A stretch of 37,889 bases of DNA from Oscillospiraceae bacterium. Lineage in GTDB: Bacteria; Bacillota; Clostridia; UBA1381. The position numbers were made by a program, and so were the translations under genes. Each line of letters opens with the position of its first letter. Within the stretch, counting starts at the first letter, position 1. The stretch is taken from NCBI GenBank assembly GCA_022509025.1, contig JAFLUB010000026.1, positions 1 through 37,889 on the forward strand. The letters run 5' to 3'. A model generated the notes under the pieces. That model was not told the origin of the DNA. It saw only the letters and a program-made list of their open reading frames with translations, and did not search any database. Shown here one piece after another: positions 7,210 to 37,751 of the stretch.

Positions 7210-7818
7210 TTAGAAATTAAATACCTTAACCAGCGGGTCTTCATTTGTTTCGCCGCCGGCGAAATCAAGCGCTTCGATTGTCATAGGTGATTTATCCTCA
7301 AGCCTGAATGTTTTCTGAACGATAATAGTACCGCCCGGCTCAACAAACTCAGACTGCGCCAAGAGATTAACTCCCTCCACGTCTGCTACGACAACCGGAC
7401 GAAGTTCGAGGTCGTTCTGATAAGCGTTCACAAGAACTGAACTCGTGAACGACCGTGCCGCGTCTGCGTTATTCTTGTATTTGAAGGAAACAACCGCAAT
7501 ATCCTCATCCTCATATTTTATAACCTTAGCGTCCTCGATTGTAACCTTTACTTTGCCGAGATTACCGCTGAATTCACTCTTATCAGAATCAGAAGTTGCC
7601 GCCTCGCCTTCGACCTTATCCATATCCGCCGGCTCGATGTTTACTGCGTTGCCATCTGCATTGTTCTCTCCGTTATTCTCATATGCGCCTGAAGCATCGA
7701 TCTTCTGTGTGTTCTGTGATGTAGCGGTATTGTTATTTTTATCCGCCTTTTTCGCACAGCCCGCCGCCGATACGGCAAGCGCAGTAGCCATAACCATAAT
7801 TATAAGTTTCTTATTCAT
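7210..7818 (-). CDS. Lipoprotein with a DUF5067-like domain
   Basis: A 202-residue exported lipoprotein. The signal peptide KKLIIMVMATALAVSAAGC ends in a lipobox with the modified Cys near residue 21, followed by an acidic, Asn-rich linker to about residue 85. The C-terminal domain (KVTIEDAKVIKYEDEDIAVV, FKYKNNADAARSF, FVEPGGTIIVQKTFRL) has the beta-sandwich pattern of DUF5067/DUF4352-type domains in clostridial lipoproteins. Function unknown; probably outer-face, membrane-anchored. The start is supported by AAAGGGAG 8 bases upstream, directly preceded by a hairpin TGCCGT, TCAGG, ACGGCA. Monocistronic, with its own promoter and terminator. Confidence 0.85.
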   Translation of the reverse strand: MNKKLIIMVMATALAVSAAGCAKKADKNNNTATSQNTQKIDASGAYENNGENNADGNAVNIEPADMDKVEGEAATSDSDKSEFSGNLGKVKVTIEDAKVIKYEDEDIAVVSFKYKNNADAARSFTSSVLVNAYQNDLELRPVVVADVEGVNLLAQSEFVEPGGTIIVQKTFRLEDKSPMTIEALDFAGGETNEDPLVKVFNF

Positions 7819-7866
7819 ATGTTAAACTCCCTTTCTGCCGTCCTGAACGGCATAAATTGTATTCAT

Positions 7867-7956: not shown

Positions 7957-8005
7957 AGATAGGCTGGAAATTTCAACTGCACCGAAAGGCTTTGCATAAT
8001 TTCTG

Positions 8006-8068
8006 TTTAACTCTTTATCAGCCCGCGATAAGGACGTTAAATTCACTATAATTCTGACGGGCAGAAAG
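8006..8068 (+). promoter_or_regulatory. Leader pseudoknot A before the HAD phosphatase gene
   Basis: A hairpin TTTAAC-t-CTTTATC / GATAAGG-ac-GTTAAA carries the loop AGCCCGC. The loop GCCCG (8021-8025) can pair with CGGGC (8058-8062), which abuts AGAAAGG. The same architecture occurs at 8746-8800 and 31437-31499 with different stem bases. It may control translation of the following gene. I do not recognise a named RNA family. Confidence 0.55.
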
Positions 8069-8083
8069 GCTACGGATACCATT

Positions 8084-8740
8084 ATGTCACAGATTAAGGC
8101 TTGTATATTTGACCTGGACGGAACTCTGACCGATACAATCCGCGCGATAGCGCATTTTGGTAACACAGCGCTTGCCGCGTACGGTATGGACGGGGTCAGT
8201 ATTGAGGATTATAAAATATATGTCGGTGACGGACGCGACAAGCTTATTCACAGACTCCTTAAAGCGCGTAACGCCGACACTCCGGAAATGTTCCGAAATG
8301 TCTGCGCAGTTTATAATGAAAATTATGAAAAAGACTGGCTTTACGATACTAATGTTTATGACGGTATACGCGAGCTGCTTGAGAGGCTGAAAGAAAACGG
8401 AGTGAAAATAGCCGTATGCTCCAACAAGCCTGACAACGTTGTCCGTTTTGTGCTTGACAGCTTCTTCGGCAAAGACTACTTTGACGCCGTAAGCGGCATA
8501 ATAGATGGTATGCCGACAAAGCCCGACCCGTATACTGCGCTTAAAATAGCGGAAAGTCTTAATGTAAAACCGGAGGAATGTCTGTTCCTCGGCGACACAA
8601 ATGTTGATATTTTCACCGCTAAGAATGCGGGAATGACATCTGTGGGCGTGCTGTGGGGATTTCGCACGCAGACAGAGCTTGTGCAGGCGGGCGCGGACTA
8701 TATAGCCCCTGTTCCAAATGTTATTTTACAGCTTGTTTAA
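8084..8740 (+). CDS. HAD-superfamily phosphatase (phosphoglycolate phosphatase-like)
   Basis: A 218-residue HAD hydrolase, subfamily IA. Motif I FDLDGTLTDT (nucleophile Asp about residue 10), motif II VCSNKP, motif III around the Lys of GMPTKPDPYTAL, and motif IV FLGDTNVDI are all present, with a helical cap between motifs I and II. Such enzymes remove phosphate from small phosphorylated metabolites; Gph- and PpaX-like members are closest by motif, but the substrate cannot be read from sequence. It is the first gene after a strong promoter, 69 bases upstream of malQ, with a long structured leader. The ATG lies 14 bases after AGAAAGG, a long spacing. Confidence 0.92.
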   Translation: MSQIKACIFDLDGTLTDTIRAIAHFGNTALAAYGMDGVSIEDYKIYVGDGRDKLIHRLLKARNADTPEMFRNVCAVYNENYEKDWLYDTNVYDGIRELLERLKENGVKIAVCSNKPDNVVRFVLDSFFGKDYFDAVSGIIDGMPTKPDPYTALKIAESLNVKPEECLFLGDTNVDIFTAKNAGMTSVGVLWGFRTQTELVQAGADYIAPVPNVILQLV

Positions 8741-8745
8741 CCCTC

Positions 8746-8800
8746 ATGCGTCTTACACGCCCGCGGTAAGACCGCAATTAAATTTTTGCGGGCAGGAAGG
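8746..8800 (+). promoter_or_regulatory. Leader pseudoknot B before malQ
   Basis: Hairpin GCG-TCTTAC / GTAAGA-c-CGC with a loop holding GCCCGC (8759-8764), which can pair with GCGGGC (8788-8793). The latter is immediately followed by the ribosome binding site AGGAAGG. Linker AATTAAATTTTT. Same layout as leaders A and C, with base changes on both sides of both helices. Confidence 0.6.
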
Positions 8801-8809
8801 TATGGTATT

Positions 8810-10285
8810 ATGAGAAAAAGCGGAATACTTATGCACATATCGTCTCTGCCGTCAGATTACGGTATAGGCACTATGGGAAACGAGGCATATAAATTTGTCG
8901 ATTTCCTCTATGAGGCGAAGCAGCGCTGCTGGCAGATATTGCCGTTAGGTCCTACGAGCTATGGTGATTCTCCGTATCAGTCGTTTTCAACTAACGCGGG
9001 AAATCCGTATTTTATTGATCTTGATATTCTTCAGGAGGAAGGATTGCTTAAGAAAAGCGATTATTCATCCTTAAACTGGGGTAAAAACAGTAAAAAGACA
9101 GATTATGAAACTATTTACAATAACCGCTTCAAAGTGCTTAGAAAAGCATTTAAAAAGTTTAAAGAGAATATTCCGAACGAGTTTAATGATTTTCTTCATA
9201 AAAACGAAAAGTGGATTTCAAACTATGCCATGTTCATGAGCATAAAGGACGAGAACGACGGCAAATCATGGCTTCTTTGGGACGACAGTCTGAGAAAACG
9301 CGATTCTCACGCTCTGTGGGAGTTCAATTCGTCTCACGAAGATGATATAATGTTCTGGGAGTTTTTACAGTTCAAATTCTTTGAGCAGTGGAATAAGCTT
9401 AAAAAGTACGCGAATGAAAAAGGTATCAGTATAATCGGCGACATTCCGATATATGTCGCTCTGGACAGCGCTGAGGTCTGGGTATATCCCGACCTGTTTG
9501 AGCTTGACAATGACCTTATCCCGACGGCGGTTGCGGGCTGTCCTCCCGATGCATTCTCCCCCACCGGTCAGCTTTGGGGCAATCCTCTCTATCGCTGGCA
9601 GCGCCACAAAGAATTCGGTTATAACTGGTGGATTGACAGAATAAAGGCGGCAACAGAGCTTTATGATATAGTAAGAATTGACCACTTCCGCGGCTTTGAA
9701 GGATATTATTCCATTCCCTACGGCGATGAAACAGCTGAACACGGACAATGGCTTAAAGGACCGGGTATGGAGCTTTTCGGCGCGGTAAAGAACGCGCTTG
9801 GCGACCTGCCGATTATTGCTGAGGATTTAGGATTTCTTACAGAGGACGTGCATAAGCTTCTTCGCGATTCGGGCTTCCCGGGAATGAAGGTGCTTGAATT
9901 TGCGTTTGACCCGCGCGAAGAAAGCAACTATCTACCGCATACATATACTTCAAACAGCGTTGTTTACGTTGGTACTCATGATAACGATACAATTCTCGGC
10001 TGGCTTAGTGAGCTTGACAAGGATACAATTGAATTTTGCAAAAAGTACATCGACGCGGACGATGATATTGTCTGGAAAATGATAAAAACAGCTATGGCAA
10101 GCGTCAGCGATACTGCTATAATACAGATGCAGGATTATTTAGAGCTTGGCAGCGAGGCAAGAATGAATATCCCATCCACACTCGGCGGAAACTGGGAATG
10201 GCGCATGGGAAAAAGAGACGCGACGAAAAAATTAGCGAAAAAAATCGCCGACATAACGCGTACATACGGCAGATGTGAAAGATAA
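8810..10285 (+). CDS. malQ: 4-alpha-glucanotransferase (amylomaltase)
   Basis: A 491-residue GH77 enzyme, the usual length. It moves alpha-1,4-glucan segments between maltodextrins, releasing glucose, in maltose/starch use or glycogen metabolism. Seen: HISSLPSDYGIGTMG near the N-terminus, the WQILPLGPTSYGDSPYQS block, the nucleophile region VRIDHFRGFEGYY, the acid/base region IIAEDLGFLT, and the third carboxylate in VGTHDNDTILGW. The start at 8810 is taken because AGGAAGG lies 9 bases upstream; an in-frame ATG at 8786 would precede the binding site. Likely co-transcribed with the HAD gene. A hairpin repeat follows the stop codon. Confidence 0.96.
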   Translation: MRKSGILMHISSLPSDYGIGTMGNEAYKFVDFLYEAKQRCWQILPLGPTSYGDSPYQSFSTNAGNPYFIDLDILQEEGLLKKSDYSSLNWGKNSKKTDYETIYNNRFKVLRKAFKKFKENIPNEFNDFLHKNEKWISNYAMFMSIKDENDGKSWLLWDDSLRKRDSHALWEFNSSHEDDIMFWEFLQFKFFEQWNKLKKYANEKGISIIGDIPIYVALDSAEVWVYPDLFELDNDLIPTAVAGCPPDAFSPTGQLWGNPLYRWQRHKEFGYNWWIDRIKAATELYDIVRIDHFRGFEGYYSIPYGDETAEHGQWLKGPGMELFGAVKNALGDLPIIAEDLGFLTEDVHKLLRDSGFPGMKVLEFAFDPREESNYLPHTYTSNSVVYVGTHDNDTILGWLSELDKDTIEFCKKYIDADDDIVWKMIKTAMASVSDTAIIQMQDYLELGSEARMNIPSTLGGNWEWRMGKRDATKKLAKKIADITRTYGRCER

Positions 10286-16837: not shown

Positions 16838-19800
16838 TTAATTTTTATAAATCGAATCCCATGCTCCTGCGCTTGATGCAGTAGAATCCGTTTTTTCAAG
16901 CGCCTCCCAATCGCGAACCTCGCGCATTTCGGTCCATATCTCATGGTCATCACCTTCAAACTCCCAGTAATGAGAATTTGTAGCCTCCTGAACTGCGCTG
17001 TAATACCATGCGCTTGTGTCAAGATTATCGCTCCAGGTAATCATACCTTCAAGGAGCGCGTTAATATTTGCAGGTTTACGGTTGAGCATATTATTAATAA
17101 GCGTCATTGCTTCAGAACGGATAATGGGCTGAGTGGGTCTGAACGTACCGTCCTCATAGCCGCTAATCCAGCCACGCTCCGCGGCGCGGTTAATATACTC
17201 TTTAGCCCAGTGATCACTGATATCCGTGAATTTGTCCTCACCTTCATATGAGCCGCTGTCAAATCTCGCTGCAATCGACGCGAACTCGGCACGCGTTATC
17301 GGCGCGTTCGGTAAGAATGTGCCGTCAAGATAGCCGCTGACAATTTCAGCGTTCGCCATCGTTGAAACCCCGTTATTATACCAGTTTATTAAATCCACAT
17401 CAGAGAAGCTGTTGAACTGATTCCAATATTTACTTCTTGAATCATCCGTCAGAAGTCTGAAGAATATCGTCGCAACCTCCGCGCGGGTTATCTGATTGTT
17501 AGGACGAACATCGCCCTCCGGATAACCGATAATATACGCATGGTGGTCATCATGGTTAAGCTCAGGCACATCATCCTTTCCGTTATTCGGATTATCTCCG
17601 GGACGTGTATTACCATCCTCACCTGTATATTCATTCCGGATAATATATCCTGTTGTGCTCTTTACATAATTCGGAGTATATCCTGAAACAGGCTCCTCCT
17701 CGACCGTATAATTGATAGCTTTGCCGTTCGCTGTACGCGCAAGCTTTGTGAACGTGTAAATCCAATTATTAGACGCGCTTAGCTCATGCGTTGCGACAAT
17801 CTCATCGCCGTTCATAACGTTGACCGTAATCGACTCAGGCCGCTTACCTTCCGCGTTGTTATTGTCCTTCCACTGCTTTTCAACACGAATACTTATATAT
17901 TCGCTGTCAACATCTTTATACTTCGGCGAATTATTCCTTGACGGCGTCCTGTCCGGACTCGGTGTCGGGCTAGGACTTGGTGTCGGCTTCGGACTCACCT
18001 CAGGAGACGGCGTCGGACTCACCTCAGGAGACGGCTTCGGGCTCACCTCAGGAGACGGCGTCGGACTTTCCTCAGGTGATTTATGATTTGTGAATTTCAC
18101 CTCTTTCGGGCTGTCAGGCTCAATCATACCTGTATCATCGCCGCTGGAAGTAACATCGTAACCGTCGTTATCCGATTCCTCAACCTTATATGTAATTTCG
18201 GCAGGCAGAGTTGCGATTTGTTTCTCACCATGCTTCAGCTTAAATTCAGTCACACCGTTTACAAATGTCAAACCACCGAATTCACCGTTAATACTTTCAT
18301 CACCCAGAGTTAAGGTAAAGGTAAAGTTCTTGGTTTTGTCACCGTCACCTGTAACAGTCTTGCTTACCGTGAGAATGCCCTTCGGGTCAGGAACTACAGC
18401 GTTAAACTTATTCGTAAATTTAGCCTCTGCTGTCTTACCGTCTTCGATTGTACCGGTATCGTCGCTCGATGTAGCTGTGTAATCGCCTCTATCCGTCTCC
18501 GACTCCTTAACCTCATATGTGATTCCGGCGGGCAGATCCGTTGCGGTTATGCTTTCTCCGTGTTTCAGCGTAAATGTAGCCACACCGTTTTCAAACGTCA
18601 TGTCGCCATATTCACCGTTGATGCTTTCATCATCCAGCGTTACAATAAAGTTAAAGTACTTATTCTGCTCTCCCAAATCACCCGTGACAGTCTTGCTTAC
18701 TGTAAGATTACCCTTCGGCGAAACAGGATTGTCAAGCTTATTTATAAATTCAGCAGTTACTGTCTCTTTTGCTACGATTGTGCCTTCCACTCCTGTGGAA
18801 GTAACATCGTAACCGTCATTATCCTCTGTAACCTTATATGTAATGTTTGCGGGCAGCATTGCAGTTATGCTCTCGTTGTCTTTCAGCGTAAATTCAGCCA
18901 CGCCGTCTACAAATGTCAAACCGCCGAGTTCTCCGTTAATACTTTTATCGCCCAGAGTTAAAGTAAATTTAAAGTTCTTATTCTTATTTCCTGCTGTACC
19001 TGTAACGGTCTTGCTTATTTTGAGATTACCCTTCGGGTCCGGAACAGGAGCGTTCAGCGTATTTGTAAAGTCCGCTTCTGCCGTCTTACCGGCTACGATT
19101 GTACCTGACGCGCCGATGGAATCTACAGTGTAATCGCCTTTATCCGTCACCGACTCTACAACACCATATGTAATTCCGGCCGGCAGATTTTTTGCGGTTT
19201 TGCTATCACCGTCTTTCAGCTCAAATTCTGTCACGCCTTTTTTAAAGGTCATATCGCCGTATTTACCGTTAATATCTTCATTATTCAGGACTACGGTAAA
19301 GCCAAATTTCTTATTCGGATCTCCCAAATCACCCTTAACGGTCTTGCTTACTGTAAGATTACCCAAAGCGTCCAGATGGTTCTCAAATTCAACCTCTGCC
19401 TCTACGTCCTCTTCGATTGTGCCTGTTGTATCTCCTTTGGTAGTAACCGTATAACCGTCATTATTAGACTCTGTAACCGTATATTTAAATCCCGCGGGCA
19501 GAGTTATGGTTTTACTCTGGCCATCTTTCAGTTTAAACGTAGCTTTACCTTTTTTAAATGTCATGTTGGCAAATTCACCGTCAATTTTTTCATCATGCAC
19601 GTCTAAGGTAAAGGTAAATTCCTTATTTTTATCGCCTGCGGTGCCTGTAACGGTCTTGCTAACTGTGAGACTACCCAGCGGAGCCGGTTCAATGTCTACG
19701 TTGAACAGCGCGAAACGCTCATTGATAGTCGCGCCAATGGACGCGGCGCTGCCCGAAACGGCAGCCGGAAAAGCGGAATAATCAGGATAATAATCCGGCT

Positions 19801-22800
19801 TAATGGTTCCCACTTCAGGATCGCCTTCCTGCAATTCAACTTCGATTTGCTCACCGGTCTCGGCACTCGTTCTTGTTATCTTATCGCCGACTCTATATCT
19901 GTCATTGCGTATCAGCGAATCAAGCACACCGCTGTTAGCGTTAGAAATCGCTCCCGCATCCGCCGATGTTATTTCTGCATTTTCCATATCGGCAAAATCC
20001 AGATAGTCGGAGCTCGTTTCGCCCTTCATATTCTTGATGGTATACGTGCCTTTTGGCAATCCGTAGGTAGGCACATCGTACGTCAGCTTTCCGACGCTCA
20101 TTTCGTCTCTGTGCCATCCGTTATCGTATTCACTGGTGCCGTAGTCATGGATAAATTGTTCATCCGTAAGCTCCAGAGTCGCATATATGTCTTCATCCTC
20201 TGTAAGCTTACCCTTGACGGTGTAATTGGCTGTCAATTTGCCTAATTCCTTGCCGTCACGGTACAAATCTGCGGTGTATTTGATTGTTGTGCCTGTCTTG
20301 ATTATATCGTTTTCGAGCAGCTTGTTTATTTCTTTCGCTCCGACACTCATTCTAAGGTCAACCTTACCGCTGACAATGTTTCTTCTTATAGTGTCCTTGA
20401 TTGCTGCCTCATCCTTGATCGTTTTGCCTTCCACGGGCTTATAAGCCGTATCCCACCTGTAAGCCGTGTCTTTTATAAGACTGTTGTCTCTGCCGTTGAC
20501 ATTGGAAGCCTTCATACTGATAATGTCATTCGCATCAATCTTTCCATTTATTTCAGCAAGTCTGGTTTCATCAAGATGAGCTCCGCCGTCTAATTCGACA
20601 GATTCACAAACGTTCTTTAAAACCTCTGAGAAGGTTTTGTCATCGTTTGCATATGTACCGTCCTTGTCAAGAATACGCTTTTTAGCCTCAGCAAAAACTT
20701 TTCCATAAAGCTCTTCATCTAATTTGTCGTCTTTGGAAAGTATATTGGTTAAAGTCATTTTTAAAACATTGTCTAAAAGAGGCTCATCTATAATATGCGT
20801 ATTGTCATCCTTGAGAAGCTCTTGTAAATAGCTTATTTTAAATGTTTCGTCTCCAAGACGCTGCTCTTCGGTATACGGAGTAAATTTAACGCTGAGCGTT
20901 GACTGTCTCGGAAGCGTATCTCTGACAAGCTCGCCCGGATTGCTGTCGGTAACTTCAGGGTATCGGCGGTCGCCTACCTGCCATGTATACCTGAGGTAGC
21001 CCATGCGGTCGCCTCTGTGTAAATCAGTTCCTGTCTGGCTCTTGTTTTCATCCGCAGAATTACCGGCAACATTTGGCAGATAATAATATGGGATAATGAA
21101 TGATCTTCTGCCGCCGTCCTCCGCGGTTTCAAACACAGCGAGCAAATCATTATAGCTCATGCTGGAATGCGGAGAAAACGTATACCGCAGTATATACTCC
21201 CAATAGATACCTGACGTCAGGTCGTCGCGGTTGTCAGAGCCTTCCCATGTCATAACCTGACCGATAATATCATTCAATGACAGCTTCTCGCCCATGAAAA
21301 TGGTCTGTTCATCGTTCTGTCCGTTTGCGGGATTGGGAACGTTTACCATGACGCGCGGGAAGCCCTTAGAGGGATGGTTGATTATTTCTCCGGTTTCATC
21401 ATCAAACACTCTGATTGCGTCTTCAGCATCGGAATGTGGTTCTTTATCAGTCTTATGGCGAACGAAGTTTTGCATCTCCTCGTTACCGCCGGTGGGAATC
21501 ATATTACCACCGACAAAGTTTTCCTTTGCTCTCAAGATAATTCTCGCATTCCAGATTGCGAGACGGTTTACGCCGATAGCGCTGGCAGGGATAGTCTGAC
21601 CATTCCACTCAAGGTAATACATACCCTTATTTTCGCTTTCGTCTTTACCGGAATCATAACGTAGGTACGGTTTTCTTGCAACCGAGTCAGTATTGTCATT
21701 GTCAAGCTCGATTTTAATGTCTTGACCGGTAGTTACATCTATCGTTTCAGTTTTGCCGTCTTTGGCGAGCTTAACAACTTTACCGTCGGCTTTCAGCTGC
21801 CATACAGTGCCGTCATTATCCACCAAATCAAAACGCGGATCAATATATTCCGTAATTGTGAAGTCCTCGAGAGGCTTAATAATCTGGTCCAGAATTTCCT
21901 CTGCGAAAATCTGCGTAAGGATATCCGCGTCATTCATGCCCTTGGCAGCATCGCCAAGCTCTTTTTTGCCCTTAGCCACGGAGAAGAAGTGAGCTTCCTG
22001 ATCCGCTTTAGATGATCCCTTTTTGCCGGATAAGGATACAAGAAAATCATGCGCTTTACCATATTGTTGTCCGGTCTCCTGCACCGGTCCGCCGTTAAGC
22101 AGGACTGTAAATATGGTATATCCGGCTTCTTTCAATGTATTAGCAATATTTTTTGTCTCATCGGGCTCGTTAACATTATCATCCGCGCCGTCGGTAAAGA
22201 TAATAAGGTACTTCGGTATATCCGGATTATCGCTGTTCTCGTCTGCCAGCTTCGATTGGAACGCCGTTAGGCCTGTTATCGAGCTTGTGCCGCCGGTGAG
22301 ACCGTAGTTGGACTGCCCATTGTTATCTTTCGCATAAAATGAGCCATTACCACGATTTGTGGACACGGTGTTCACGCTCTCGCTGAGATTTGAGGTCCAG
22401 TTGAGCAGTATCGCATCGTTCTCATTCAGTTTCGAAGAGCTGAAACGAACAGCAGAAACAATAGCTGAGGGAGAAACCTCGCCCATTTTAGTTACAAACG
22501 CGCCTACAGCTCGACGCAGAGCCTCTGTCTTGACGTACTGCTCATCTGTCAGCTCGTAGACGTAGGAGGCGCGATAGTTACTACTTCCTGTTGCGGTAAA
22601 GCAGCGCAGATAACCATTGCTGTCGATATAGAACTTAATCGGACCGTTAGCTGATACGGTATATGTTATACCGGTATTCCCACTATCACTCTCTGTCGTC
22701 ATGTCAGGCGCGACGCCGACGCCGTCATCTCCTGTCATACTTGTTCCCGCCGTAATCGTGTCCGTGAAGGTCCAACCTGATTGGAGTCCGATAGTATTCT

Positions 22801-25267
22801 TTGCGGTTGTACTATTAGCCGTGAAGTTGCCGGTATAGCTGGAATAGTACCAACCATTTCCGTTTATATTGTTTTGGAATTCGGGCGCTCCGCCTGCATA
22901 ATAGCAAATAGGGGTATATTCCGCAGTATTGATTCTGGCGTCATATACAAAATAGCTGTAGCCGGAAGCGCCGAGCAGGGAATTGTCAGTGTTTCTGGGG
23001 TTAAGAATTATGTCTTGTTCGTCTTTGGTCAGAAATACCTCGACCATTCTCTTCGGCGCGCTAAGCGGCTGACCGACGATAGAAGTCAGTGTTCTTATTT
23101 CAGACGCAGTAAGCGCAGCGTCATAGAGGTAGATATTGTCAACATAGAAATACTGCTTCTCACTTTTATATCCGTCGTCAAATGGGGCAAATACGACGTT
23201 TTTCCCTGAAAGTCCCGTAACTGAGGCGGTCGCCTTTTCTGCACCATCTAAATATGCCGTTACGCTACCGTTATTGAACACGAATGCAAGCTCATGGCTC
23301 GCGATGCCGCCATAAACATTAGAAAGTGTGAACAGCTTGCTGTCTTTTCCCAGTTCAGCAACGATATCATTGCCGGTACGGTACACATGGAAATATTTGG
23401 AAGCTGCTATGCTGCCTGTTAAACCACCGATGTACAGGATTTCAAGTTTTCCGGTATAGGCGTTGGCAGCTGTCTGATTCAGAGAAAATGAGAGTGTAAA
23501 GTTGTCGCTCGCAGGTGTTTCCTCTACCAAAAAACCCGCTGTCGAATAGTCAAGAGAAAATCCTTGACCTTCCGAGAAGTTCAGAGGTACACCGCCCCAG
23601 CTCGTTGCGCCAGTATAATCCTGATATTTAATCAGGGTTTTCTGATTAGATACACCAAAATCAATGGCGTCGTCTGTAGGCTGCGAGACCGCCTTTGCAA
23701 AGTCGCTTTTCACCATGTCGCTGTATTTCGTAGACGGTTCTTTCTTTACAGTATTCAAAAACCATGTTCTGTTATCACCATCTTTATTTGGTTGAAACTC
23801 ATAGTATCCTTTGAGGTTGGCTTTTGACGGGTATTCAGTGGTCTCTTCCTTCGTGTATTCGCCCAACCTTTCGAGCATACCAATCTTATATTCAAGAGCC
23901 GTTGCGTCAGCCTCCCTGCCGCTCGATTTCAGCTTCTTAATAACATCCTTGACATTGATAGCATTTGGTATGTCGGAGGCAAAGCCCATACTGCCTGACG
24001 CGTCTATAACCATACCTACCTGCTGCGCGTATCCTTCGGTATACCATGATTCCAAATCCACGTTAAAGGTTCTGCCGTCACCTATCGTTTTTACAAAGTG
24101 ACCATCATCATCAGTTACCCGGTTACCCTCTTCATCAAGCACATATTCCTCATGAACACTTGCGGTTTTATCGGTGTGCAGTCCTACAGCAGTACTGTAG
24201 ACCTTGGTAAGCTCAACGTCTTCTCCCACATTTAAGCCTACAGGTAACTCCTCTGCTTTTGTGCAGGGCATATCGCCGTTTTTGACGATTTCTCCCTTGA
24301 TATAAGAGTTTTCTGAGTCTGTACTGTCGTGTAAATATGTATACACCCAAGCCGTATCGTGTTCCTTGCTTTTTTCTATACCCTCGTTGCCGAAAACCGT
24401 CTTGTCTGCGGTACCGTTTACGTCCATGGTCTCACAGATATAAAACGCGTGCATCTTTACAATGTGAACATCCTTGTCATAACTTACCTTGATGATGTCA
24501 CCATTATTTTCGTCTGTTACGGTTGCATTAGCGCCTGAGGAGACATTGAATCCGGCAAAGTGTTCGTACGCCTCGTCCTCGTCGGTTCCGTCCCAGTTGC
24601 CGTATTCGCATTCCATAAGCTCGATCGAACCGTCACCGACAGTTCCGAGATAAACGGACCAGATGCCGCCGCCTTGCTTGTCTGTCGGACTGAGCACAAT
24701 AAACTGGTCGCCATTGTCGACTTCTGCCCCATGATAGCCGGAACGTGCCGCGGCATAGTATTTATAGCCGTCGTCACTATCATCAGAAGGAACAATATAT
24801 CCGTCAATTATGACAGAATGGAGGTCACGCGATTCGCCTGTCTCTTCTGACGATTGTCCTTTTTCGTTTGTCGCATGCCAATGACGCACCATAAAGTGCG
24901 TGGCTTCGTCAACATTTATTTCAGACAATTTAGCTTTTGGTAAATTCTTCGCTTCCTCGCCTCCGAACAGCGGATCGGCATGGATAGAAGCGCCTGCAAC
25001 TGCATCAGGCGTTTTTGAAGCGCTTGCAGTTGCATCAGGCGTTCCTGTCGGTGACGCTGTCTTTGAAGGACCTGCCGTTGCATCCGGATCTCTTGTAGGT
25101 GAAGCGCTTGCTATTGCATCAGGCGTTCCTGTCGGTAAAGCGCTTGCCGTTACGCCGGGCGCTGCCGGATCTGTCGTTGTCTCGTTCTCTGCGTATGCCC
25201 ACGTTGGCATCATGGACAAGCACATGGAGATTACTATGATTATGCTTATAAATCTCTGTCTTTTCAT
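16838..25267 (-). CDS. Giant SLH-anchored surface protein with VWA, LamG-like and isopeptide-like repeats
   Basis: About 2809 residues. A signal peptide (KRQRFISIIIVISMCLSMMPTWAYA) is followed by a Thr/Pro/Ala-rich linker with repeats to about residue 110. A von Willebrand A domain starts near 419 with the metal site DASGSMG. It is interrupted by a concanavalin/LamG-like region (about 530-730) and resumes near 910-1060 (IIFTDGADDN). Residues about 1856-2390 hold five repeats of about 107 residues, each starting LTVSKTVTG or a variant and ending near FTNxL, like pilin or adhesin stalk domains. Then come a Pro/Ser spacer (about 2392-2446), a Cna-B domain (about 2456-2545) and three SLH repeats (about 2570-2760). 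A probable cell-surface adhesin. The start is set just before the signal peptide; GGGGGT lies 12 bases upstream. Confidence 0.93.
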   Translation of the reverse strand: MKRQRFISIIIVISMCLSMMPTWAYAENETTTDPAAPGVTASALPTGTPDAIASASPTRDPDATAGPSKTASPTGTPDATASASKTPDAVAGASIHADPLFGGEEAKNLPKAKLSEINVDEATHFMVRHWHATNEKGQSSEETGESRDLHSVIIDGYIVPSDDSDDGYKYYAAARSGYHGAEVDNGDQFIVLSPTDKQGGGIWSVYLGTVGDGSIELMECEYGNWDGTDEDEAYEHFAGFNVSSGANATVTDENNGDIIKVSYDKDVHIVKMHAFYICETMDVNGTADKTVFGNEGIEKSKEHDTAWVYTYLHDSTDSENSYIKGEIVKNGDMPCTKAEELPVGLNVGEDVELTKVYSTAVGLHTDKTASVHEEYVLDEEGNRVTDDDGHFVKTIGDGRTFNVDLESWYTEGYAQQVGMVIDASGSMGFASDIPNAINVKDVIKKLKSSGREADATALEYKIGMLERLGEYTKEETTEYPSKANLKGYYEFQPNKDGDNRTWFLNTVKKEPSTKYSDMVKSDFAKAVSQPTDDAIDFGVSNQKTLIKYQDYTGATSWGGVPLNFSEGQGFSLDYSTAGFLVEETPASDNFTLSFSLNQTAANAYTGKLEILYIGGLTGSIAASKYFHVYRTGNDIVAELGKDSKLFTLSNVYGGIASHELAFVFNNGSVTAYLDGAEKATASVTGLSGKNVVFAPFDDGYKSEKQYFYVDNIYLYDAALTASEIRTLTSIVGQPLSAPKRMVEVFLTKDEQDIILNPRNTDNSLLGASGYSYFVYDARINTAEYTPICYYAGGAPEFQNNINGNGWYYSSYTGNFTANSTTAKNTIGLQSGWTFTDTITAGTSMTGDDGVGVAPDMTTESDSGNTGITYTVSANGPIKFYIDSNGYLRCFTATGSSNYRASYVYELTDEQYVKTEALRRAVGAFVTKMGEVSPSAIVSAVRFSSSKLNENDAILLNWTSNLSESVNTVSTNRGNGSFYAKDNNGQSNYGLTGGTSSITGLTAFQSKLADENSDNPDIPKYLIIFTDGADDNVNEPDETKNIANTLKEAGYTIFTVLLNGGPVQETGQQYGKAHDFLVSLSGKKGSSKADQEAHFFSVAKGKKELGDAAKGMNDADILTQIFAEEILDQIIKPLEDFTITEYIDPRFDLVDNDGTVWQLKADGKVVKLAKDGKTETIDVTTGQDIKIELDNDNTDSVARKPYLRYDSGKDESENKGMYYLEWNGQTIPASAIGVNRLAIWNARIILRAKENFVGGNMIPTGGNEEMQNFVRHKTDKEPHSDAEDAIRVFDDETGEIINHPSKGFPRVMVNVPNPANGQNDEQTIFMGEKLSLNDIIGQVMTWEGSDNRDDLTSGIYWEYILRYTFSPHSSMSYNDLLAVFETAEDGGRRSFIIPYYYLPNVAGNSADENKSQTGTDLHRGDRMGYLRYTWQVGDRRYPEVTDSNPGELVRDTLPRQSTLSVKFTPYTEEQRLGDETFKISYLQELLKDDNTHIIDEPLLDNVLKMTLTNILSKDDKLDEELYGKVFAEAKKRILDKDGTYANDDKTFSEVLKNVCESVELDGGAHLDETRLAEINGKIDANDIISMKASNVNGRDNSLIKDTAYRWDTAYKPVEGKTIKDEAAIKDTIRRNIVSGKVDLRMSVGAKEINKLLENDIIKTGTTIKYTADLYRDGKELGKLTANYTVKGKLTEDEDIYATLELTDEQFIHDYGTSEYDNGWHRDEMSVGKLTYDVPTYGLPKGTYTIKNMKGETSSDYLDFADMENAEITSADAGAISNANSGVLDSLIRNDRYRVGDKITRTSAETGEQIEVELQEGDPEVGTIKPDYYPDYSAFPAAVSGSAASIGATINERFALFNVDIEPAPLGSLTVSKTVTGTAGDKNKEFTFTLDVHDEKIDGEFANMTFKKGKATFKLKDGQSKTITLPAGFKYTVTESNNDGYTVTTKGDTTGTIEEDVEAEVEFENHLDALGNLTVSKTVKGDLGDPNKKFGFTVVLNNEDINGKYGDMTFKKGVTEFELKDGDSKTAKNLPAGITYGVVESVTDKGDYTVDSIGASGTIVAGKTAEADFTNTLNAPVPDPKGNLKISKTVTGTAGNKNKNFKFTLTLGDKSINGELGGLTFVDGVAEFTLKDNESITAMLPANITYKVTEDNDGYDVTSTGVEGTIVAKETVTAEFINKLDNPVSPKGNLTVSKTVTGDLGEQNKYFNFIVTLDDESINGEYGDMTFENGVATFTLKHGESITATDLPAGITYEVKESETDRGDYTATSSDDTGTIEDGKTAEAKFTNKFNAVVPDPKGILTVSKTVTGDGDKTKNFTFTLTLGDESINGEFGGLTFVNGVTEFKLKHGEKQIATLPAEITYKVEESDNDGYDVTSSGDDTGMIEPDSPKEVKFTNHKSPEESPTPSPEVSPKPSPEVSPTPSPEVSPKPTPSPSPTPSPDRTPSRNNSPKYKDVDSEYISIRVEKQWKDNNNAEGKRPESITVNVMNGDEIVATHELSASNNWIYTFTKLARTANGKAINYTVEEEPVSGYTPNYVKSTTGYIIRNEYTGEDGNTRPGDNPNNGKDDVPELNHDDHHAYIIGYPEGDVRPNNQITRAEVATIFFRLLTDDSRSKYWNQFNSFSDVDLINWYNNGVSTMANAEIVSGYLDGTFLPNAPITRAEFASIAARFDSGSYEGEDKFTDISDHWAKEYINRAAERGWISGYEDGTFRPTQPIIRSEAMTLINNMLNRKPANINALLEGMITWSDNLDTSAWYYSAVQEATNSHYWEFEGDDHEIWTEMREVRDWEALEKTDSTASSAGAWDSIYKN

Positions 25268-25344
25268 ACTTAGTAATATACCCCCTTTTGACTTGTTAAT
25301 AGACACTATTATCATGATATGTTGATTATTTAGTATAATATTAT

Positions 25345-31334: not shown

Positions 31335-31342
31335 TAAGGAAG

Positions 31343-31376
31343 TGATAACGTGAAAAATCACGTTATCATGATTTTA
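31343..31376 (+). terminator. Terminator of the decarboxylase-recD2 operon
   Basis: Perfect 11-bp stem TGATAACGTGA (31343-31353) and TCACGTTATCA (31358-31368) with an AAAA loop, then TGATTTTATT. Eight bases after the recD2 stop codon. Confidence 0.85.
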
Positions 31377-31436
31377 TTGCCCGTCCGAGTATTTTCTCGC
31401 AAGCTTCGAAAATCGCACATGGGCAAAATATCCATT

Positions 31437-31499
31437 AGCGCCCTATCTGCCCACGATAGGCGCGTTAAAATTTTTCATTACTCTTTGTGGGCAGAAAGG
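31437..31499 (+). promoter_or_regulatory. Leader pseudoknot C before the second HAD gene
   Basis: Hairpin GCGCC-c-TATC / GATAGGCGC with the loop TGCCCAC (31448-31454), which can pair with GTGGGCA (31487-31493) just before GAAAGG. The linker contains GTTAAAATTTTT, as in leaders A and B. The distance from AGAAAGG to the preferred ATG is 14 bases, exactly as in leader A. I found no convincing promoter between the recD2 terminator and this element. Confidence 0.6.
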
Positions 31500-31513
31500 C
31501 TATGAATATTTAT

Positions 31514-32152
31514 ATGCAAGGAGCAATATTTGATGTTGACGGTACCCTCCTTGACTCAATGTCAGTCTGGTGGGATGTTCTTATCGAATTTTACAAACAG
31601 CACGGCGTGGAGTTATCCGATACGGAAGCAATGACGTTTAAGGAAGTGACGCTTGATGAATCTATCCCTATGATGATAGACAGGTTTAGTCTCAGCGAAA
31701 CGCCTGATGAAGTTCTGAATATACTTAAGGGTATGACGGCAAAACATTATGAAACAACACTGCCGCTTAAAGAGGGAGCAAAAGAATATTTAAAAAGATT
31801 GCACGGCAGCGGCGTTAAAATAGCTATCGCAACTTCGGGCTATGAGGAGCTTTGCAAAACGGCTTTCATGCGTCTCGGTGTGTGGCAGTACATTGATGCC
31901 TGCGCTTTTTCATCAGAGGTTGGCGTGAATAAGTCCAATCCCGACGTGTATCTTCTCGCGGCAAAACGTATAGGAGTTCAGCCGGAAGAGTGTATTGTTT
32001 ATGAGGATATATTGGCGGGTATAAACGGCGCAAAAAAGGGTGGTTTTCGTACATGCGCTGTTTATGATGACACTAACGCGGATGAAACGGATACGCTCAA
32101 AGAACTCGCAGACTGTTATATTACATGCTGGAACGATTTGCTGAGTTCGTAA
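31514..32152 (+). CDS. HAD-superfamily phosphatase (beta-phosphoglucomutase-like)
   Basis: About 212 residues, HAD subfamily IA. Motif I is FDVDGTLLDSMSVWWDV (nucleophile Asp at about residue 8), motif II IATSG, the motif III Lys is in VGVNKSNPDVYLLAAKRIG, and motif IV is YEDILAGINGAKKGG. The VYEDI form and cap resemble beta-phosphoglucomutase-like and sugar-phosphate phosphatases; the substrate is unknown. Start at 31514 is preferred because the HAD fold begins there; in-frame ATG 31502 and GTG 31487 touch or precede the AGAAAGG site. It shares its unusual leader with the HAD gene and malQ at 8 kb, suggesting common control. Confidence 0.9.
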   Translation: MQGAIFDVDGTLLDSMSVWWDVLIEFYKQHGVELSDTEAMTFKEVTLDESIPMMIDRFSLSETPDEVLNILKGMTAKHYETTLPLKEGAKEYLKRLHGSGVKIAIATSGYEELCKTAFMRLGVWQYIDACAFSSEVGVNKSNPDVYLLAAKRIGVQPEECIVYEDILAGINGAKKGGFRTCAVYDDTNADETDTLKELADCYITCWNDLLSS

Positions 32153-36570: not shown

Positions 36571-36599
36571 TATGTTAACATAAAGAAAGGATGATTAAT

Positions 36600-37751
36600 A
36601 TGCCAATTTACAAAATGGAAGGTAAAAAAAACGGTCTGCAAAGATATCGCGTACGCATCAATTACAAGGACAGCGCCGGGAAATCAAGGCAGACCGACAG
36701 AATTGCTTACGGTAAAGAGGCGGCAAAGGAACTTGAGCTGCAGCTTAACAGCACTATGAAAACATTTTCTGCACCGCGCATTACACTGCGCCAGCTTTAC
36801 GAGGAATATATCACCGTAAAGAAATACGAGGTTCGGGAAAATACCATACATACAATGCAGGGACGGCTTGAGGCATACGTTATAGCGGTGCTTGGCGACT
36901 ATGACATCAGGGATCTGAATGTTGCGATTCTGCAGAAATGGAAGCAAAAAACAGAGGAGTCAACCAACGACAAAAACCCTTCAAAAAAAATCTCTCTGAC
37001 AGTGAAAAAAAATATATACGGTGAATTCCGCGCGTTGCTCAATTATGCCGTGCGTATGGAATACATCCCTAAAAATCCTTTGATCTCCATAGGTAATTTT
37101 AAGAATCCATATGAACCGAAAACAGAAATAAGATTTTATACGCCGGAGGATTTCAAAAAATTTATACGCGTATCTGAACAAGAGGCTGTACATACAGAAA
37201 ATACTACCGGTAACACATATGAATGGAATTTCTATGTATTTTTCAATATAGCCTATTATACAGGGATGCGAAAGGGTGAAATAAACGCGCTTAAATGGTC
37301 CGACATTGACGGGAATATTATTCACGTGCGCAGAAGCATTACTCAGAAAATCAAAGGCGGTGACAGAGAAACTCCGCCGAAGAATAAAACATCTATACGC
37401 GATTTGCAAATGCCTTTGCCGCTTACAAAAATACTGAGCGAACACAAAAAACGCCATGAACTGATAACAGGCTTTAATGATGATTTCAGGATTTGCGGCG
37501 GTGTCAGATGTCTTCGTAATACAACACTTGAGCGGCGTAATACTTATTATTCCGAAACTGCCGGCTTACAGCATATACGTATACATGATTTCCGCCACTC
37601 ACACGCTTCCCTGCTTGCCAACAACGGCATCAATATTCAGGAAATCGCCAGACGACTCGGACATGCGAATGTTGAAATAACATGGAATATATACTCTCAT
37701 CTCTACCCTCGCGAGGAGGAAAGAGCGATTAATGTTTTAAATAAAATCTGA
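36600..37751 (+). CDS. Tyrosine recombinase / phage-type integrase
   Basis: 383 residues, full length for integrases of Firmicutes phages and conjugative elements. An N-terminal arm-binding-like region (YKMEGKKNGLQRYRVRINYKD) is followed by a SAM-like core-binding domain and the catalytic domain, with Arg in YTGMRKGEINALKWSDID, HDFRHSH (His-x-x-Arg), LGHANVEIT and the nucleophile Tyr in NIYSHLYP. All catalytic residues are present. The start is 36600, with AAAGGA 9 bases upstream; the ATG at 36591 touches the site. No excisionase, relaxase or phage gene is beside it. ACGTGTAAA recurs at about 36488 and 37757 on either side, too short to call att sites. Confidence 0.92.
   Translation: MPIYKMEGKKNGLQRYRVRINYKDSAGKSRQTDRIAYGKEAAKELELQLNSTMKTFSAPRITLRQLYEEYITVKKYEVRENTIHTMQGRLEAYVIAVLGDYDIRDLNVAILQKWKQKTEESTNDKNPSKKISLTVKKNIYGEFRALLNYAVRMEYIPKNPLISIGNFKNPYEPKTEIRFYTPEDFKKFIRVSEQEAVHTENTTGNTYEWNFYVFFNIAYYTGMRKGEINALKWSDIDGNIIHVRRSITQKIKGGDRETPPKNKTSIRDLQMPLPLTKILSEHKKRHELITGFNDDFRICGGVRCLRNTTLERRNTYYSETAGLQHIRIHDFRHSHASLLANNGINIQEIARRLGHANVEITWNIYSHLYPREEERAINVLNKI

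Follow-up and report, generated by a model that had tools for sequence, protein, structure and literature searches.

The riboswitches SAM-II, SAM-V and preQ1 are H-type pseudoknots that act on translation, in which the loop of a small hairpin pairs just before the Shine-Dalgarno (SD) sequence. Guides located 5′ of terminal hairpins and complementary to the cleavage sites are described for IS200/IS605 elements (PMC8266576). Structured leaders occur in a gut Oscillospiraceae bacterium (GCA_022509025.1; genome 2.49 Mb), within a 37,889-nt stretch of contig JAFLUB010000026.1, hereafter the window. A sequence-only reading had placed three such leaders before two HAD phosphatase genes and malQ, and their positions, hairpins, GCCCRC loops and 3′ strands of GGGC followed by AG(A/G)AAGG were all found as it had given them. 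The hairpins are real, but the P1 helix is longer than had been proposed for the first and third leaders. The supposed AAA-T-TTT core of the linker did not hold as a fixed core, and survives as a loose A/U-rich consensus (82% A/T over the last 12 nt). The third leader, at 31437-31499, is present but is merely the 3′ part of a structured element of ~170 nt at 31342-31510. The other two are short forms, composed as follows.

8005-8069, plus strand: HAD1 leader, short form (P1, pseudoknot and its own SD, termed SD2; no 5′ part)
8005-8041, plus strand: HAD1 P1 hairpin with loop AGCCCGC, from sequence and fold; covariance model match of 72.2 bits
8005-8011 and 8036-8041, plus strand: outer HAD1 P1 strands GTTTAAC and GTTAAA, from sequence
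8013-8019 and 8027-8033, plus strand: inner HAD1 P1 strands CTTTATC and GATAAGG, from sequence
8021-8025, plus strand: HAD1 pseudoknot 5′ strand GCCCG, from sequence and pattern search
8058-8062, plus strand: HAD1 pseudoknot 3′ strand CGGGC, from sequence and pattern search
8063-8069, plus strand: HAD1 SD2 AGAAAGG, followed by ATG at 8084 (ORF 8084-8740, HAD_2)
8747-8800, plus strand: malQ leader, short form (P1, pseudoknot and SD2; no 5′ part)
8747-8776, plus strand: malQ P1, TGCG-TCTTAC with GTAAGA-C-CGCA, from sequence; covariance model match of 45.6 bits
8759-8764, plus strand: malQ pseudoknot 5′ strand GCCCGC, from sequence and pattern search
8788-8793, plus strand: malQ pseudoknot 3′ strand GCGGGC, from sequence and pattern search
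8794-8800, plus strand: malQ SD2 AGGAAGG, followed by ATG at 8810 (product Glyco_hydro_77)

Taken singly, the three leaders fold modestly more stably than shuffled sequences when folded without pseudoknots (z of -1.5, -1.7 and -2.7). The motif GGGCAGRAAGG, with at most one mismatch, is found six times in the window against 0.69 expected, a number reached in 0 of 100 shuffles. Covariance models of Rfam 15 (4227 families) gave no match to the window at the gathering threshold; at E≤10 there was none for 7980-8840, and 31425-31512 returned one antisense miRNA match far below gathering. Nine long-form loci yielded five matches at E≤1, all below gathering and none at the leader. A known RNA family was accordingly rejected, and the earlier remark that the leaders fit no class such as preQ1, SAM-II or fluoride stands after a covariance scan.

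On the minus strand of the window, a plain hairpin, GCCGTTCAGGACGGC (7837-7851), adjoins AGAAAGG before a DUF5067 gene (7210-7818), and a similar plain hairpin precedes the ORF at G000:C56:19123. The hairpin in the window is possibly a relative of the leader that lacks the pseudoknot, or a remnant. The window further holds a single ORF of 2825 aa (16838-25315, minus strand) and, at its end, a phage-type integrase gene assigned by Pfam (36591-37751, plus strand).

The core of the leader, of ~55-75 nt in the short form, comprises P1, a loop GCCCRC that pairs with a downstream GYGGGC as an H-type pseudoknot, SD2 (AGAAAGG) at once thereafter, and the start codon. The longer architecture was recognised by reading 160 nt upstream of 30 copies in the same genome, most of which proved to be the 3′ part of a larger element. 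In this long form, of ~170 nt, the core is preceded on its 5′ side by a hairpin (H1) and a domain (H2), and the structure is closed beside the start codon by a further helix, P0. Its 5′ half runs from a native-looking SD (SD1) through H1 (AACGTGA...TCACGTT) and H2 (GCCCGTGC...GCAC-AT-GGGC) to the P0 5′ strand ATATCCAT; its 3′ half continues with P1 and its GCCCAC, an A/U-rich linker, GTGGGC, SD2 AGAAAGG, CT, the P0 3′ strand ATGGATAT, a few bases and ATG. The copy in the window is laid out as follows.

31342-31510, plus strand: long-form element before the second HAD gene of the window, ~170 nt
31338-31342, plus strand: native SD GGAAG (SD1) of this HAD gene, now 5′ of the element; 12 congeners have SD, spacer and start without the element
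31342-31369, plus strand: H1 hairpin GTGATAACGTGA(AAAA)TCACGTTATCAT, directly after SD1; outer pairs locus-specific
31379-31424, plus strand: H2 domain GCCCG...ATGGGC, with covariation across clades
31428-31435, plus strand: P0 5′ strand ATATCCAT, pairing with 31502-31509; one mismatch in this copy
31435-31468, plus strand: P1 hairpin with loop TGCCCAC, CCTATC/GATAGG and outer GCG/CGC and TTA/TAA
31449-31454, plus strand: pseudoknot 5′ strand GCCCAC, from sequence and pattern search
31487-31492, plus strand: pseudoknot 3′ strand GTGGGC, from sequence and pattern search
31493-31499, plus strand: SD2 AGAAAGG, from sequence
31502-31509, plus strand: P0 3′ strand ATGAATAT, near the right end of the element
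31514, plus strand: start codon ATG of the HAD gene; orthologues start at the same place

The 5′ arm of H1 holds a GTG at start-codon distance from SD1; a conserved upstream ORF from this GTG was rejected, as frame and length vary between copies by eye. Six long copies bear an extra structured insert of ~65-70 nt in the H1 loop (G000:C4:51661, C25:6649, C25:7337, C32:8447, C2:34740 and C3:50851), and the long copies of argR and recN, which are neighbouring genes, both carry this insert. In one long-form clade (L035, L037, L044, L092, L133, L135-L138 and L141) H1 is followed by CCTCC or CCTTC, a complement of the native SD1; judged from its sequence, CCTCC on the 3′ side of H1 could cover SD1 in that clade. 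In L052, of a different clade, a hairpin covers the SD1-like stretch.

Far from being confined to three copies, as had been supposed, the family numbers ~89 in this genome by covariance model. The model was built from 72 sequences of this and other genomes, and 150 of 1349 candidates from the source genome were scored; 130 matched at E≤1 and 90 at E≤1e-3, of which one antisense echo was dropped. The resulting 89 comprise 54 long forms, 20 short forms, two with a partial left half and 13 that are degenerate or very short. Pattern searches returned 43 exact copies with a hairpin start and a GGGC-SD end (none read backwards), 54 with GCCCRC...GYGGGCAGRAAGG and no stem required, and 55 with the looser SD of GYGGGCRGRAAGG, the reversed control giving none for either of the latter. 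Long copies share a median aligned identity of 84%, but their 5′ flanks only 27% (ungapped); they have thus multiplied within this lineage.

Further instances, which the sequence-only reading had anticipated in related genomes, are plentiful. The covariance model matches 49 of 61 genomes and the stem-free pattern 41 of 61, the source genome included in both, with one match in the reversed control of the pattern. The 15 congeners carry 0-11 copies each and other members of the family up to 32, counts from the covariance model of which stricter filters lose the weak matches. Named carriers are MAGs labelled Ruminococcus, Oscillospiraceae or Clostridia, together with the cultured Ructibacterium gallinarum (lineage Oscillospiraceae), in which the long form is present (L047). 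Across the phylum beyond the host order (397 genomes), 22 matches in 20 genomes stood at chance level against 20 in 16 for the control, and none of the 14 same-class genomes among these had a pattern match. A wider pattern search gave 47 of 100 loci, among the matches listed, that pass a filter of pattern plus stem; most of the remaining loci look like chance matches in unrelated bacteria. Viral contigs gave no match to the strict pattern and phage and plasmid records none to the element, so that a viral, phage or plasmid origin was rejected.

Copies sit at gene starts, which upholds the proposal of a structured H-type pseudoknot placed for translation initiation. In the source genome, 84 of 89 lead into an ORF of at least 60 aa beginning 4-21 nt after SD2 and five have no such ORF; among the 74 copies whose ATG lies 9-20 nt beyond SD2, the distance is exactly 14 nt in 47. 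The 72 sequences of the model were partly picked with stem bases in the pattern, and a second set, of 95 listed copies from other genomes, was picked without stem or start codon. Within this second set, 93 of the 95 lie 4-21 nt before an ORF, compared with 14% of 3760 positions drawn at random from that DNA. The outcome that had been held to speak against the leaders, a match to a known repeat dispersed without regard to gene starts, is therefore borne out only in the dispersal: the copies keep strictly to gene starts, and none of the known repeats matched.

The genes downstream are of many kinds. Fifty of the 86 downstream proteins of the source genome were scanned against NCBIfam, and 35 had a match at E≤1e-20, with scattered functions, while 15 had none. 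Best matches, some of them below the curated cut-off, include recN, argR, aspS, purC, apt, ilvD, trkA, murG, lgt, cmk, hypoxanthine phosphoribosyltransferase, queC, nrdG, dnaN, a Clp ATPase, aconitase, spoVAD, addB, remA and a MATE transporter; no ribosomal protein was among the 50. The genes dnaN, cmk and aspS are usually held to be essential, and all three carry the leader here. When 179 leader genes from the various genomes were compared with one another, 19 clusters emerged, 17 of them small and common to several genomes and two within one genome. Because the downstream genes are scattered and few leader genes are common between genomes, a themed regulon is unlikely.

The pseudoknot, P1, H1, H2 and P0 all pair with compensatory changes, and the RNA structure is real and selected; the earlier observation that stem bases differ while pairing is kept thus extends to P0, P1 and the pseudoknot as well as to H1 and H2. 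Across the 72 aligned sequences, 83.4% of cells in P0, P1 and the pseudoknot are paired, compared with 37-41% when the strands are slid, and 124 cells are changed on both sides, compared with 59.6 in shuffled data. For H1 and H2 (12 sequences from three clades) the corresponding values are 88.6% against 28-42%, with 36 double changes against 12.5. In the second set, 60 of 95 copies have a P1 stem of 5 bp or more (shuffled mean 35.5, maximum 43). At the free pseudoknot pair, 93 distinct copies of that set show A-U 49 times, G-C 34, G-U nine and A-C once (Fisher p 6e-16, uncorrected for kinship); in 55 copies of the source genome the counts are 47 A-U, five G-U, two G-C and one A-C (p 0.04). The signal in P1 is uneven: of eight positions in 65 copies from other genomes, the observed value was reached by 0 to 10 of 2000 shuffles at five, and at the other three (147, 26 and 47 of 2000) the gain over shuffling is unclear; in the 28 copies with an extra A spacer only one position beats shuffling. 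Orthologous leader genes of the congeners G002, G012 and G014 keep P1 with wholly different letters. Compensatory changes within hairpins could come in part from palindrome correction during replication, an explanation that does not extend to the crossing pairs of the pseudoknot. Both a fixed place before the start codon and compensatory structure, the marks of a cis-acting translational leader, were thus found.

Seven loci of the source genome were compared with their orthologues in the genus, the flanks being read by eye and the relatives being other species rather than strains (protein identity of 61-82% for recN, cmk and the HAD protein). At five of the seven the site is empty in relatives, as for a dispersed mobile element. 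The cmk gene has a plain SD, spacer and start in all 15 congeners, and the element in the source genome alone; argR lacks the element in 14 of 14, clpC in 14 of 14 and the HAD gene at 31514 in all 12 congeners that have the gene. At recN, 13 of 14 have a plain SD and start, and G006 has a different insert. These five loci, four with long forms and clpC with a short form, each keep the native SD, which the element separates from the start codon. The remaining two differ. Diverged pseudoknot-like leaders precede malQ in G001 and G015, with a possible remnant in G005 and 11 of 14 plain, and, by eye, HAD1 in the same two congeners, the other 12 of 14 being plain; the short-form leaders of malQ and HAD1 are older, common to the source genome and two congeners. 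The insert upstream of recN in G006 (locus L200) ends in GGAATGGAGATTACT before the start and recalls a weak copy of the source genome, C14:1720; it may represent a separate family of elements that shares the right end. Among the weak copies, several have the appearance of 5′-truncated remnants in which SD2 and the start are retained.

The edges of the element bear on how it could have arrived. At cmk the upstream gene ends directly before the element, and the final bases of that gene are complementary to the H1 3′ arm. For the three pairs of H1 arm and left flank closest to SD1, 39 long copies include 35, 30 and 22 with a match, compared with 21.9, 15.6 and 12.3 when shuffled, and 0 of 1000 shuffles reach any observed value. 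Such complementarity could reflect targeting by a guide-like sequence, or correction of a palindrome once the copy was in place. By eye, neither a target-site duplication nor inverted ends were seen at the loci examined; a TGATT at clpC is tempting, but not so at the other loci. With the H1 3′ arm complementary to the left flank and the P0 5′ strand to the right end, the layout recalls that of IS200/IS605 guides. By inspection of the genomes compared, the presence of Y1 transposase genes bears no relation to copy number, and none were found in the copy-rich G020, G034, G052, G054 and G060, all of them 73-89% complete. Five Y1 matches exist in the source genome, all at or within ~450 bp of contig ends, with a best nearby R1 match of E 0.58; blastn of the window element against these loci gave a best E of 0.38, a comparison that the contig ends restrict. 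For all its suggestive layout, an IS200 or REP transposase was therefore rejected as mobiliser, since by inspection Y1 presence shows no dependence on copy number and no shared ends were found. One Y1-family gene (G000:C18:37131-37463), which lies close to a contig end within an open frame of ~250 aa and has no leader copy nearby, is presumably a REP-associated transposase.

Openness of SD2 was compared between pseudoknot-free folding and folding with both pseudoknot strands reserved, a proxy constraint in place of a pseudoknot energy model. With the strands reserved, predicted openness rises from 0.09 to 0.50 in 55 copies of the source genome (52 up, one down) and from 0.29 to 0.55 in 93 from other genomes (63 up, 10 down). 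The job of the pseudoknot would then be to keep SD2 open, its formation preventing burial of SD2 by pairing of the neighbouring GGGC side and leaving it accessible at the base of a stacked helix. SD2 is presumably the working ribosome site: the AGAAAGG sequence should match the 3′ end of the 16S rRNA of clostridia, and the retention of SD2 and start by weak, truncated-looking copies hints that the gene depends on SD2.

On balance, the element is probably a dispersed and itself probably mobile family of translational leaders that gives genes a pseudoknot-presented replacement ribosome-binding site. The long form has multiplied in the source genome, its copies presumably spreading as non-autonomous mobile elements that enter the spacer between a host SD and its start codon. 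An inserted copy would shift SD1 of the host gene away from the start, leaving the gene to be translated from SD2. Confidence in this reading is slightly lowered because two of the seven compared loci hold older shared copies and because the P1 signal is uneven in the second set. Only tentatively, and with some doubt, would we go on to a start-site-homing element, one that is mobile but non-autonomous, enters the spacer between SD and start, renders the native SD silent and has the host gene translated from its own pseudoknot-presented SD. Its 5′ hairpin arm would match the upstream flank of the host gene, and the CCTCC of one clade can cover the native SD.

Against a mobile leader may be set a global translational switch under host control, in which a protein or general metabolite binds the pseudoknot and gates SD2 across a large, fast-evolving regulon, the spread being recruitment of a module. 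Retention of the pseudoknot in older short copies speaks for it, at malQ in three species, by eye at HAD1 in three as well, and in the orthologous genes of G002, G012 and G014 with their wholly different stems, as do the loose consensus of the linker and the predicted burial of SD2 without the pseudoknot (0.09 in the source genome, 0.29 elsewhere). Such a switch is nevertheless unlikely, given the functional scatter of the downstream genes and the 17 small clusters common between genomes among 179 leader genes. Moreover, no covariation links L1 to the base that follows GGGC (93 copies: T/A 27, C/A 22, A/A 13, T/G 12, C/G 10, A/G 6, G/A 3), so that an alternative OFF helix via L1 is not conserved and was rejected, and a conserved bistable switch is unsupported. 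Narrower still is the riboswitch for sugar-phosphate or glucan metabolism first proposed for the two HAD phosphatases and malQ. The two HAD genes and malQ do lie together in the window, and an H-type pseudoknot beside an SD resembles small translational riboswitches. Yet 84 copies precede ORFs, with unrelated functions among the 50 scanned and no shared pathway; Rfam offers no match, and the third leader is absent from all 12 congeners that have the gene. This very improbable reading was rejected because the downstream genes are scattered, the leader standing before many unrelated ones.

The converse position, a mere selfish DNA repeat of the IS200/IS605 or REP kind whose hairpins serve single-stranded DNA transposition and whose RNA structure is incidental, draws on the sequence 5′ of each hairpin that is complementary to the element edge, in the manner of IS200/IS605 guides (PMC8266576). 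Also in its favour, no duplication was seen by eye and Y1-family matches exist in the genome. Conservation of the crossing pseudoknot pairs, an SD2 with the usual 14-nt spacing, the location of 93 of 95 listed foreign copies at gene starts and the failure to find Y1 genes in several copy-rich genomes (73-89% complete) make it distinctly unlikely. The position of long copies between SD1 and ATG, and a locus-specific complementarity to the 5′ flank reminiscent of intron-exon pairing, would also suit an intron-like RNA, removed so that the native SD1 rejoins its start codon. Rfam, which covers introns of groups I and II, gave no family that matched, the element has its own SD2 at the usual distance, and weak, seemingly 5′-truncated copies retain SD2, all of which leave an intron scarcely credible.

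If start-site homing were true, insertion before essential genes would be tolerable and the host would be bound to keep the RNA fold; the element would represent a class of mobile element whose niche is the short stretch separating a ribosome-binding site from its start codon, and which survives by swapping that site for a pseudoknot. The leader offers many natural copies for measuring how translation depends on a pseudoknot adjacent to an SD, and supplies gut Clostridia with a portable module for starting translation. It carries a warning as well, that a repeated riboswitch-like leader does not necessarily mark a metabolite regulon. No such element was found described in the literature, where subscription journals were thinly covered and support for novelty is weak.

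The leader most resembles SAM-II, SAM-V and preQ1 in its small hairpin, whose loop pairs just before an SD, and in the plausibility of control at the level of translation. It departs from them in being dispersed, with no Rfam match or shared pathway, and in bringing its own SD2, 3′ of the pseudoknot and unpaired within it. The autoregulatory leaders of S4 and S15 likewise place a pseudoknot at the ribosome-binding site, but no ribosomal protein was among the 50 scanned proteins downstream of the leader. In layout it recalls IS200/IS605, with hairpins that have a 5′ stretch complementary to the element edge (PMC8266576), and further in that no duplication was seen by eye and in a single orientation. 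Its complementary stretches are ~6-8 nt long, however, rather than tetranucleotides as in IS200/IS605 (PMC8266576), it targets gene starts, and no linked Y1 transposase was found. Finally, the leader is short, structured, present in many copies, without coding capacity seen and amplified in a species-specific manner, much as are MITEs and the repeats REP (PMC8266576), BOX, RUP and ERIC. Unlike these, it is set ~14 nt before start codons in the sense of the gene, provides a replacement SD and has its pseudoknot kept by compensatory change.
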